Notes under the pieces: model-generated
What the model was told of the DNA's origin: nothing
Seen by the model: only the letters and a program-made list of their open reading frames with translations
The model's database searches: none
NCBI RefSeq assembly: GCF_003362805.1
Contig: NZ_QNQT01000004.1
Location: 124,001 to 188,000, forward strand
Reading direction: 5' to 3'
Length of the DNA stretch: 64,000 nucleotides
From: Neobacillus piezotolerans
Lineage (GTDB): Bacteria > Bacillota > Bacilli > Bacillales > Cytobacillaceae
Program-made: the position numbers and the translations under genes
Part shown: positions 17,066 to 53,983 of the stretch, piece by piece
How the letters are laid out: every line of letters begins with the position of its first letter
How positions within the stretch are numbered: the stretch's first letter is position 1

Positions 17066-17145
17066 ATTCTAGTCATTTTTTCAATGATTCTAGTCATTAA
17101 TGAAGAGATTCTAGTCACTTTTTCACCGATTCTAGTTTATCTGGA
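17066..17145. repeat. Four-copy 21-nt-spaced ATTCTAGTCA repeat
   Basis: ATTCTAG begins at 17066, 17087, 17108 and 17129, exactly 21 bases apart. Units 1-3 continue with TCA and then diverge in the last 11 bases, partly TTTTTCA. The fourth is ATTCTAGTTTATC. This is the main content of the 393-bp gap 16925-17317. No coding potential is seen. Confidence 0.75.
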
Positions 17146-17259: not shown

Positions 17260-17287
17260 TTGCCCTCCCGAAACGGTACGGTATACT
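17260..17287 (+). promoter_or_regulatory. Probable sigma-A promoter of the UGA-containing gene
   Basis: TTGCCC (17260-17265), 16-bp spacer, TATACT (17282-17287), 30 bp before the ATG at 17318. A live promoter argues against a long-dead pseudogene. Confidence 0.5.
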
Positions 17288-17317
17288 TAATACAAATAGG
17301 TTGAAAGGGGTTCATAC

Positions 17318-17818
17318 ATGCATAAGCGGAGTTTTTTGCGGACCGTTTTATTCCTGGCGGCTTTTGCGCTCGTTATGGCGGGCTGTTCCGGGAAAAAGGT
17401 CCTCCTCGATGAGCAGGGCAAGGAAGTATCGCTGGAAAACAAGGACAAGCCATCCCTGGTCTTTTTCTTTACCGGCAATACCTGAGACTACTGCAAATCG
17501 CAGCTGGTCGAGCTGCAGAACAATAAAGATTTATTTGCTGATTTCCCAGGGGATGTCTACGCGCTAAGCGCCGCTTCTCCGGAGGATCATAAGGAAATGA
17601 AGAAAGAGCTGGGCCTTGACTATACCCTTCTTTCCGATAAATATTTGACGTTAATTGACAAGGCAAAAATGAAAGATTCAAGCGGTCCGAAGTCGGTGAG
17701 GGGCTTTGCGATCCTCGACAAGAATGGAAAGGTCCTTGAATCCCAGCAGCTGGACCCATTTGGGGAGCAGGTCGGGGACATCATTCCGTATGCTGCACAA
17801 AAGGTCGGCGCTCAATAA
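17318..17818 (+). CDS. Thioredoxin-like lipoprotein with in-frame UGA at the CxxC site: candidate selenoprotein, otherwise a nonsense pseudogene
   Basis: ATG at 17318 follows AAAGGGG and opens a 166-codon frame interrupted only by TGA at 17483-17485 (codon 56). Before it is a lipoprotein signal (lipobox MAGC) and LVFFFTGNT; after it is DYCKSQLVEL and 107 further clean codons to TAA. Aligned to TlpA/ResA-type folds (FWATWCxxCKxE), the TGA falls exactly on the first Cys, giving UxxC with the second Cys at codon 59. A hairpin with loop GGTCG lies 20 nt downstream of the TGA. Promoter, ribosome binding site and terminator are intact. If UGA is read as selenocysteine, this is an extracytoplasmic thiol redox protein. 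If not, it is a single-base nonsense mutant of a Cys codon. No sel genes are in the window. Confidence 0.7.
17500..17516 (+). promoter_or_regulatory. Candidate bacterial SECIS hairpin
   Basis: GCAGCT / AGCTGC forms a 6-bp stem with a 5-nt apical loop GGTCG. The loop begins 20 nt after the in-frame TGA and starts with two G. Both features suit bacterial SECIS elements, and the E. coli fdhF SECIS also carries GGUC in its apical loop. An alternative pairing CTGCA (17491-17495) / TGCAG (17514-17518) competes with it. A 6-bp hairpin can occur by chance. Confidence 0.5.
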
Positions 17819-17828
17819 GACATCTTTC

Positions 17829-17865
17829 AACTGCCTGTTCCATTAGGAGCGGGCGGTTTTTTTTT
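17829..17865 (+). terminator. Terminator after the thioredoxin-like gene
   Basis: Nine-pair stem AACTGCCTG / CGGGCGGTT (two G-T pairs) followed by a long T run. Confidence 0.85.
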
Positions 17866-22564: not shown

Positions 22565-23053
22565 TTAATCAATAAGTTTTTCAAAATTGATGCGTTTATG
22601 AATGGCATACATCAATGGCGCGCCAATCGTAAGCACGGCGAATTCGCCGAATGCGACCGCCAGCCATGTAGCGAAAAATGGGTATTTGAAGACAATGTTC
22701 AATTCCCAGGCAATCAGGAACATCGTCACCGTAAAGACAACGGTATTAATTGCCATCCGAGCCCAGATTCCTTTAATATACCGGGATGAAAACATGGTAA
22801 TCAAAAGGGCGAGCACCGATTGCCCGAAACCAAAAATAAGGTCGAGGCCGGGACTTGGCGAGAAGAAAAGGTTTGCCAGGAAAACGCCAAGGATAATGCC
22901 GAAAAAGTATTTCTTGTTAAATACGATGAGATGGTTGAACATCTCGGATAAACGGAATTGAATATTTGAAAAGCTGAGCGGCTGGATAAAAAACGTCACC
23001 ACAATATACAGCGCAGCAATAATCCCGTTCACTGCCAATGATTTAATATTCAT
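22565..23053 (-). CDS. queT: Queuosine precursor transporter QueT
   Basis: A 162-aa membrane protein with about five helices, of the QueT/DUF988 group that supplies queuosine precursors through ECF-type uptake. The N-terminal block QPLSFSNIQFRLSEMFNHL and GYLDLIFG-like DLIFGFGQS are characteristic. The identification is supported by a preQ1-I riboswitch directly upstream that merges into its ribosome binding site. It is a single-gene transcript with its own promoter and terminator. High preQ1 would be expected to reduce translation. Confidence 0.92.
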   Translation of the reverse strand: MNIKSLAVNGIIAALYIVVTFFIQPLSFSNIQFRLSEMFNHLIVFNKKYFFGIILGVFLANLFFSPSPGLDLIFGFGQSVLALLITMFSSRYIKGIWARMAINTVVFTVTMFLIAWELNIVFKYPFFATWLAVAFGEFAVLTIGAPLMYAIHKRINFEKLID

Positions 23054-23062
23054 CTTTCTCTC

Positions 23063-23099
23063 TCCTTAGTTTTTTAGCGTGGGAGGTTCTCGAACCACG
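23063..23099 (-). promoter_or_regulatory. PreQ1-I riboswitch
   Basis: On the minus strand: a 5-bp stem CGTGG / CCACG enclosing loop TTCGAGAACCTC, then CTAAAAAACTAAGGAG. The A-rich tail, the AAAAAACTAA motif and the merging Shine-Dalgarno are the hallmark of preQ1 class I. It is directly upstream of queT. A small hairpin TCGGG/CCCGA precedes it. Confidence 0.9.
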
Positions 23100-23121
23100 T
23101 CGGGCTTTACCCGAAAGTAAC

Positions 23122-52273: not shown

Positions 52274-53983
52274 TCAAAATAAAAAGTATCTTTGGGCCAT
52301 AGGGACTTCGAAAACAGGTTCGCATGTAATAAGCTCTCCGTTTACTCTCACTTCATAGGTTTGGGGGTCGACTGTTATTTCCGGTGTTTCGGAGTTCAGC
52401 TTCATATCCTTTTTCGTCAGCTTTCGAATGCCACGTACTGGCAAAATCATTTTTTCCAAACCAAGCTTTTCATCCACTTTGTCATCAACTGCCGCTTGCG
52501 AAACGAATGTAATGGAGCTTTTATAGAGCGCCTTTCCCATTTGCGCATACATCGGCCGGTAAATAACCGGCTGGGGCGTAGGGATGGAGGCGTTCGGATC
52601 GCCCATCAGGCTCTCAACCACAAATCCATTTTTAATAACCATTTCAGGCTTTACGCCAAAAAAGGCGGGAGACCAAATGACGAGGTCGGCGATTTTTCCA
52701 ACTTCCACAGATCCGACATACTCGGAAATGCCATGGGTAATGGCCGGGTTAATCGTATATTTTGCTACGAACCGTTTTGCGCGGTTGTTATCGGAAAGCT
52801 TGCTGTCACCCTGCATCGTTCCACGCTGTTTTTTCATTTTGTCCGCGACCTGCCACGTACGAAGAATAACTTCGCCAATCCGGCCCATCGCCTGGGCATC
52901 CGAGCTGACCATGCTCAAAACGCCCATGTCCTGAAGAATATCCTCGGCGGCAATCGTTTCACGCCTGATACGCGAATCCGCGAAAGCGAGGTCTTCAGGA
53001 ATTGAAGGGTTTAAATGGTGGCACACCATCATCATGTCCAAATGCTCGTCAATTGTATTGACTGTATAAGGCAAGGTAGGATTGGTCGATGACGGAAGGA
53101 TGTTCATATAGCTCGCTGACCTAAGCAAGTCAGGGGCATGGCCTCCGCCAGCGCCTTCGGTGTGGTACATGTGAAGAACCCTTCCGTTGATGGCTGCCAT
53201 CGTATTTTCCATAAATCCGCATTCATTCTGGGTATCGGCGTGAAGGGCGACCTGTACATCGTATTTGTCGGCAACCCTTAAGGCATGGTCAATGGCTGAT
53301 GCTGTCGCGCCCCAGTCTTCATGGACTTTTAAACCGATGGCGCCAGCGCGGATTTGTTCGGCCAGCGGCTCTTCCGAAGCGGCCTGCCCTTTGCCGGTGA
53401 AGCCTACGTTTATGGGCATTCCTTCAGCCGCTTCAAGCATGCGGTGAATATTCCACGGACCGGGCGTAACCGTTGTCGCCCTCGACCCAGCAGCCGGACC
53501 GGTCCCTCCGCCGATGAGGGTTGTCAGGCCAGCGGCAAGCGCCGTTTCAATTTGCGCAGGATTAATAAAATGGACATGCGTATCGATACCGCCAGCCGTG
53601 ACAATCATCCCTTCTCCAGCGATGATTTCGGTCGCTGCGCCGATGACGATATCGACATTGTCCATCACAAGCGGGTTGCCGGCTTTTCCGATTGCAAATA
53701 TTTTGCCGTCGCGAATGGCAATATCGGCTTTGACGATTCCGGTGTAATCGAGGATAACGGCGTTCGTGATAACTGCATCAGGGACATTTTCCCCTCTCGT
53801 TACAAGAGGGTGCTGCCCCATTCCATCACGGATGACCTTCCCTCCGCCGAAGACAACTTCCTCTCCGTATGTCGTATAATCCTTTTCAACCTGGATGAAT
53901 AAATCGGTATCAGCCAGGCGGATGGAATCCCCGGTTGTCGGGCCATACATTTGGGCGTATTGTTTTCGTGATAAGTTGGTCAT
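52274..53983 (-). CDS. ureC: Urease alpha subunit
   Basis: 569 aa, the catalytic subunit hydrolysing urea to ammonia and carbamate. Nickel and active-site features are present: HVHFINP, the carbamylated Lys in [35 protein letters not shown], the flap His in [22 protein letters not shown]-like sequence, and [12 protein letters not shown] at 53983 shares a base with the ureB stop; AAAGGGTG lies six bases upstream. Confidence 0.97.

Follow-up and report, generated by a model that had tools for sequence, protein, structure and literature searches.

A UxxC peroxiredoxin-like lipoprotein family of Bacillaceae with a conserved in-frame UGA, probably decoded as selenocysteine

INTRODUCTION

What does a solitary in-frame TGA signify in a gene that otherwise looks intact? 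The question is raised by a forward-strand frame at positions 17318–17818 of the 64,000-nucleotide stretch of Neobacillus piezotolerans DNA analysed here (‘the window’), in which a run of 166 codons, ending in TAA, is interrupted only by a TGA at codon 56 (17483–17485). A first-pass annotation, made from the nucleotide sequence alone, had placed this TGA at the first cysteine of a CxxC motif of the TlpA/ResA type, with a SECIS-like hairpin just beyond it, and had proposed a ‘candidate new selenoprotein’.

Peroxiredoxin-like (Prx-like) selenoproteins with a UxxC motif have been described since 2005. PMC1088965 describes a Prx-like family in which UXXC replaces TXXU, and Table 1 of PMC13188914 lists a Prx-like thiol:disulfide oxidoreductase (PF00578, UxxC) as a high-confidence prediction; neither Bacillus or Bacilli nor lipoprotein is mentioned in the main text of the latter. 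A count from 2016 (PMC5029168) gives 28 organisms with the Prx-like UxxC family, amongst which some Bacillaceae could be included.

RESULTS

The gene and its local signals

Re-reading the sequence, we see that the frame is as first described: a single TGA at codon 56, in the context FTGNT-U-DYCKSQLVELQ, followed by 110 sense codons, for a predicted product of 166 residues including selenocysteine (Sec). The promoter, ribosome binding site, lipobox and terminator previously reported around it can likewise all be located on the forward strand. The ribosome binding site (AAAGGGG, 17304–17310), read directly from the sequence, lies 7 nt 5′ of the ATG; the sigma-70-like promoter (TTGCCC, 16 nt, TATACT; 17260–17287) comes from a consensus scan only, matches at just 9 of 12 positions and, with four sites of such quality observed in the region against 2.2 expected, would not be remarkable by itself. 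Downstream, a terminator scan picks out an intrinsic terminator with a 13-pair stem and a following T run (17829–17858), three terminators of this kind being observed in the region against 1.3 expected. The lipobox, VMAGC (residues 19–23; 17372–17386), suggests that Cys23 is lipidated: its Cys column is kept in 45 of the 47 rows of our family alignment, the other two rows having gaps, and a strict lipobox pattern is found in 92 of 101 family members, with eight of the remaining nine still having Cys after a hydrophobic segment and one being incomplete. Separately, the region 5′ of the gene (17066–17136) contains three in-register copies of a ATTCTAGTCA-type sequence, at a spacing of 21 nt.

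Selenocysteine machinery

Decoding of UGA as Sec in bacteria calls on SelA, SelB, SelD and tRNA-Sec, and all four, the search for which had been proposed as a check, are present in the assembly from which the window is taken (4.53 Mb, 36 contigs, 99.98% complete). A single tRNA-Sec scores above the Rfam cut-off at 65.2 bits, with ARAGORN concurring (tRNA-SeC, anticodon tca), and selA, selB and selD all score above cut-off, at 561, 362 and 396 bits respectively; the proposal would have fallen had selB or tRNA-Sec been missing. The selD gene itself carries an in-frame TGA (KAG-U-GCKIG, as read from the sequence), as does the gene for the formate dehydrogenase FdhA (CNRT-U-HAP); the genome therefore holds at least two standard selenoprotein genes besides that in the window. 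The sel genes had been out of view to the earlier reader because they are located on other contigs, and no tRNA genes were found within the 64-kb window. Elsewhere in the same genome (contig C12, 210354–213158) there is a further formate-dehydrogenase-like stretch, divided amongst several matches, the first of which has one in-frame TGA. In three other genomes we observed a second tRNA-Sec-like match above cut-off: G026 (two at 60.8 bits), G002 (57.3) and G013 (49 bits).

Conservation and distribution of the TGA

We then consider the gene across a panel of 61 genomes (the window’s own plus 60 relatives), with SelA and tRNA-Sec sought in all and SelB in the window’s own. SelA was above cut-off in 47 of the 61, and the identical set of 47 has tRNA-Sec above cut-off. 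The protein search matched 31 genomes, 22 of which have a homologue bearing exactly one TGA, the other nine giving weak matches only, none with a stop. All 22 genomes with TGA homologues fall within the 47 that have SelA and tRNA-Sec, and the 14 lacking these have none (Fisher p 0.001, with no correction for relatedness). The other 25 Sec-capable genomes lack a TGA homologue, and the gene therefore neither goes hand in hand with the Sec trait nor belongs to its core machinery.

Within the genus, TGA stands at the same codon in 8/8 genomes (the window’s own and seven others). At family level, 102 of 193 genomes were matched at an E-value of 1e-10 or lower and each of these holds at least one copy with TGA; by match, 117 of 120 have exactly one TGA, the other three being stop-free and scoring 43–44 bits. 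A scan of species genomes extended the distribution, with the best 80 of 178 loci including Bacillus, Neobacillus, Mesobacillus, Cytobacillus, Halalkalibacter, Alkalihalophilus, Planococcus, Ammoniphilus and others. Mesobacillus selenatarsenatis SF-1 and Alkalihalophilus pseudofirmus OF4 are amongst the strains with a TGA-bearing member. Counting identical proteins once and leaving aside loci added later, 111 distinct matches reduce to 101 members above 135 bits, the ten below that score being eight distant matches without UGA and the second pieces of two broken copies, L038 and L115. All 101 have TGA at the position of codon 56. The earlier proposal was open to the objection that relatives might have Cys, with this strain alone carrying TGA; neither the genus nor the wider family bears this out.

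Sampling further out, a class-wide set of 398 genomes gave matches in 17 (19 rows; 11 with one TGA, eight without), and a phylum-wide search of 398 genomes gave matches in 13, with one TGA in 4 of 13 rows: two strong and within the family, and two weak and outside the class (L189, SSG-U-ASC; L190, TPG-U). The genome of L189 contains, besides its SSG-U-ASC relative, a second, weaker UxxC match (RHLG-stop-LLC) in another frame. The two broken copies, L038 and L115, are disrupted by frame changes, through either decay or assembly error; one comes from genome G024 and the other from Mesobacillus boroniphilus JCM 21738.

Relatives without UGA

Close Cys homologues are absent amongst the 101 members. 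The nearest relative without UGA that we found is L172, a lipoprotein with the motif CSAC that scores 60.7 bits; it has Cys at the place equivalent to Sec, and a SelA search of its genome gave no match. Searching five genomes of the same order for further Cys forms returned only the source of L172 itself. Other matches without a stop score below 55 bits, and those inspected at the motif show Thr at the Sec place (Bcp/AhpC-type TPGC, TFVC), a CxxC type RGxWCPxC, or a TlpA-type WATWC; the alignments of L199–L201 begin past the residues that precede the motif, and for L042 nothing aligned above 20 bits. TGA-bearing genes also occur in more distant genomes, with SelA present in 5/5 of those searched for it. 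A more distant lipoprotein subfamily, represented by L173 and L174 (FTAPGUTQC and FTSPTUPTC), carries TGA in genomes with SelA, its Sec forms making a Sec/Cys pair with the Cys form of L172.

The SECIS hairpin

The hairpin GCAGCT-GGTCG-AGCTGC (17500–17516, +) begins, as had been noted, at the fifteenth nucleotide past the TGA and its apical loop opens with GG. It has a 6-bp stem, a 5-nt loop (GGUCG), a UGA-to-loop distance of 20 nt and a folding energy of −10.4 kcal/mol in a 30-nt stretch; values that lie within the bacterial SECIS model given in PMC13188914 (apical loop of 3–9 nt with G in the first two positions, stem of 4–16 bp, UGA-to-loop distance of 16–37 nt, minimum free energy at or below −7.5), with a competing fold to be noted: taking the 48 nt from the TGA, an alternative structure at −10.9 kcal/mol is slightly preferred. 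Dinucleotide shuffling of the window sequence gives a z of only −1.38.

A clearer signal is seen across the family, where the 101 members yield 95 distinct 72-nt stretches. The fourth stem pair, which joins the last base of a Gln codon to the first of a Leu codon, is G-C in 53, A-U in 37, G-U in five and A-C in none, with all of the changes being synonymous; Gln CAA always occurs with Leu TTG, and with CTG in 0/95 (Fisher p 3e-21 for the covariation, relatedness not corrected). The hairpin Leu codon is CTG or TTG in all 95 sequences; over the remainder of these genes, those two account for 455 of 1711 Leu codons. A tree of 93 members, built without the broken copies L038 and L115, shows 16 changes of the Gln codon and 14 of the Leu codon; there are five independent pairs with full branch support, of which 4.9 on average are concordant and none opposed (median p 0.0625). 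When synonymous codons were redrawn with the protein held fixed, the mean z was −2.9 at the hairpin, as compared to −0.1, 0.0 and −0.6 at three control stretches, with redraws as stable as the real stretch making up 2.7% overall and a fraction of 0.0005 for the window.

The hairpin lies within the best 45-nt fold in 83 of the 95 sequences, the window being one of the 12 exceptions; this best fold is weaker than −7.5 kcal/mol in 2/95, the bare 17-nt hairpin reaches that value in 52/95, and G is found within the first two loop positions in every case. With the window’s own fold ambiguous and the signal present across the 95 sequences, the case for a SECIS element is therefore comparative, rather than one built on a single fold. 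In L172, the Cys form, the covarying pair reads A-C (n = 1).

Selection after the TGA

In six of seven same-genus comparisons, dN for the part of the gene after the TGA is 0.033–0.119 against a dS of 0.72–3.34, the dS of the seventh not being computable. Of 105 codons, 31 to 63 differ at the third position, 5 to 15 at the first and 0 to 4 at the second; the portion past the UGA therefore evolves as translated sequence.

Fold and active site

The window protein scores 64.8 bits with Pfam AhpC-TSA (PF00578), against a gathering score of 26. A profile built from the 47-row alignment (A2; the window protein plus 46 of the 80 loci) finds its best solved relatives amongst the Bcp/AhpE/AhpC peroxiredoxins, and the best 50 PDB matches listed for an AlphaFold2 model (pLDDT 91.4) are all peroxiredoxins, with TM-scores of 0.59–0.68 by query length. 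In the alignment with mycobacterial AhpE, Cys59 (codon at 17492–17494) falls on what we take to be the peroxidatic Cys of that enzyme, and Sec56 three residues earlier, at the place of the TxxC Thr; the active site is thus a UxxC set within a peroxiredoxin frame. Arg128 (codon at 17699–17701) and Gly129 align with the RG of AhpE. Invariant in all 47 rows are F49, T52, U56, C59, Q62, L63, V64, L66, S84, D107, R128, G129 and G137.

The UxxC placement put forward in the first-pass annotation thus stands, whereas the TlpA/ResA type does not, the fold being nearer to the peroxiredoxins. TlpA and ResA share with the window protein the place of a CxxC-type motif and membership of the same superfamily, and ResA is extracytoplasmic, as the lipoprotein would be; but none appears amongst the 50 fold matches listed, the NCBIfam ResA model gives 15.9 bits against a cut-off of 170, and the cis-Pro of ResA presumably stands where the window family has Arg128. 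In combining PF00578 with UxxC in place of TxxU, the protein belongs with the Prx-like UxxC selenoproteins. It falls outside the TxxU Sec-peroxiredoxins, in which Sec occupies the peroxidatic position.

Gene neighbourhood

The window gene is flanked by a methyltransferase-like gene, below Pfam cut-offs, and a PAS-GGDEF-EAL gene; no CtaG or SCO1 genes adjoin it, and no conserved functional partner was seen for its subfamily. A different picture is found for one clade, recognisable by the motif HFT(E/G)V-U and comprising Halalkalibacter, Alkalihalophilus, Salsuginibacillus, Sinobaca and others: in 14/14 loci with enough upstream DNA, the selenoprotein gene is immediately preceded, on its own strand, by a CtaG-like gene followed by a SCO1-like one, a count from which L121 is omitted as having too little. 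The neighbours were grouped by sequence similarity and Pfam was run on one locus, L134, where Caa3_CtaG (193 bits) and SCO1-SenC (122 bits) both exceed their cut-offs. From the SCO1-like gene to the first Met of the selenoprotein the gap is −8 to 125 nt (13 loci measured). No CtaG–SCO1 cluster was found for the other subfamilies amongst the best 80 of 178 loci. The HFT clade also keeps neighbours on either side, HAD-like upstream and argC-like downstream, both named by eye, and as these are conserved too, the CtaG/SCO1 synteny may predate any function.

DISCUSSION

The conserved UGA, the complete Sec machinery, the selected hairpin and the purifying selection past the UGA together argue, at the level of sequence, that the window gene is almost certainly a genuine selenoprotein gene. 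As we picture it, SelB and Sec-tRNA, acting at the in-gene SECIS just past UGA codon 56, would read this codon as selenocysteine, giving an extracytoplasmic lipoprotein of AhpC/TSA fold. On the outer side of the membrane, Sec56 and Cys59 would then make up a redox-active selenenylsulfide pair, close to Arg128 and able to reduce either peroxides or protein disulfides; the biochemical function we infer from sequence and modelled structure.

Between these two activities, a true selenoperoxidase, reducing peroxide outside the membrane, is a serious candidate, at a little under an even chance. The best PDB matches are to the peroxiredoxins AhpE, Bcp and AhpC, and the invariant Arg128 aligns with the RG of AhpE; against this, Sec occupies the place of the Thr in TxxC and not that of the peroxidatic Cys, unlike the TxxU seleno-peroxiredoxins, of which L190 is an example.

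A thiol-disulfide reductase that acts outside the membrane in the maturation of copper sites (Sco/CuA) or of cytochromes is, we consider, a realistic prospect, at perhaps two chances in five. The UxxC motif itself points this way, as does the gene order of the HFT clade (CtaG-like and SCO1-like genes upstream in all 14 loci, Pfam-confirmed in L134), which suggests a role in copper/cytochrome oxidase assembly: CtaG and SCO1 are oxidase-assembly families, and a redox lipoprotein fits beside them. Saying this, no such genes lie beside the window gene or those of the other subfamilies in the 80 loci, and synteny within a single clade, where HAD-like and argC-like genes are conserved as well, may be inherited order. 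Oxidase assembly would in any case be one client, suggested by the arrangement in that one clade. A more specific idea, tentative and in our view rather unlikely, is that in Bacillaceae the Sec lipoprotein acts alongside Sco and CtaG on the outer face of the membrane, maintaining the cysteines of copper sites in their reduced state while cytochrome c oxidase is assembled; if true, the maturation of an aerobic respiratory enzyme would depend on selenium.

That UGA is read through as some other residue, by Trp insertion or a suppressor tRNA, is very improbable. The residue inserted is invisible to genome analysis alone, but SelA and tRNA-Sec are found in 22/22 TGA-bearing genomes of the 61-genome panel and SelA in all five of the more distant ones, the window hairpin fits the SECIS model, and Cys takes the equivalent place in L172, from a genome without a SelA match. 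A pseudogene, born of a recent nonsense mutation in the Cys codon of an ordinary CxxC protein, or a sequencing error, has next to no chance of being correct: TGA is one base from TGC or TGT and two other copies (L038, L115) are frame-disrupted, but TGA in 101/101 distinct members above 135 bits and a full Sec machinery lead us to reject it, with purifying selection past the TGA and the synonymous covariation of the hairpin also counting against it.

Taking the gene, then, as one for a selenoprotein, how new is it? The conserved TGA, the machinery and the hairpin uphold that part of the original proposal; its novelty has to be narrowed, as the window family is a new branch of the UxxC Prx-like selenoproteins and not a new kind. 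It shares with these an AhpC/TSA domain, Sec in UxxC and a SECIS past the UGA, a likeness judged from the published description of that family, whose reference sequence is WP_010940744.1. It differs from them in being a signal-peptide lipoprotein of Bacillaceae, with UGA in all 101 members compared. What is new here is thus a predicted signal-peptide-bearing branch across Bacillaceae, with putative Sec in every member compared; amongst the matches listed in our literature search there was no Bacillaceae selenoprotein of the UxxC lipoprotein kind. L189, from outside the class, scores 44.6 bits with the A2 profile.

The TxxU Sec-peroxiredoxins (PrxU, NF040737) are of the same fold family, but the Sec of the window protein stands three residues ahead of their peroxidatic position, and NF040737 matches just five of the 47 members, weakly (best E 0.0013). 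The nearest NCBIfam seleno-redox models are NF040769 (SelL-related redox protein) and NF053656 (TUGYCR motif thioredoxin fold (seleno)protein), which at E up to 0.01 match 46/47 and 30/47 members. On the window protein they reach 18.8 bits (cut-off 120) and 17.4 bits (cut-off 100), well short of membership, and on nine further TGA members their best scores are 32.9 and 21.7. In NCBIfam of June 2026, no model reached its cut-off for the window protein, these nine members or one Cys form, the rest of A2 being judged by E-values alone; such genes are therefore liable to annotation as truncated or as pseudogenes.

In a broad set of Bacillaceae (102 of 193 family genomes), then, a redox protein outside the cytoplasm probably makes use of selenium. 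These spore-formers would thereby have a use for the element besides formate dehydrogenase, and a connection of selenium with copper/oxidase assembly becomes testable. The 95 distinct natural hairpin sequences around the UGA also make a good test set for RNA recognition by SelB.

Two further RNA matches were observed in the window. On the reverse strand, at 23060–23104, a PreQ1 riboswitch aptamer (53.5 bits) lies just 5′ of a frame at 22565–23053 that is membrane-protein-like, and at 53542–53831 there is a match of 94.7 bits to the Rfam family 5_ureB_sRNA, which may be a mere reflection of conserved urease coding sequence.
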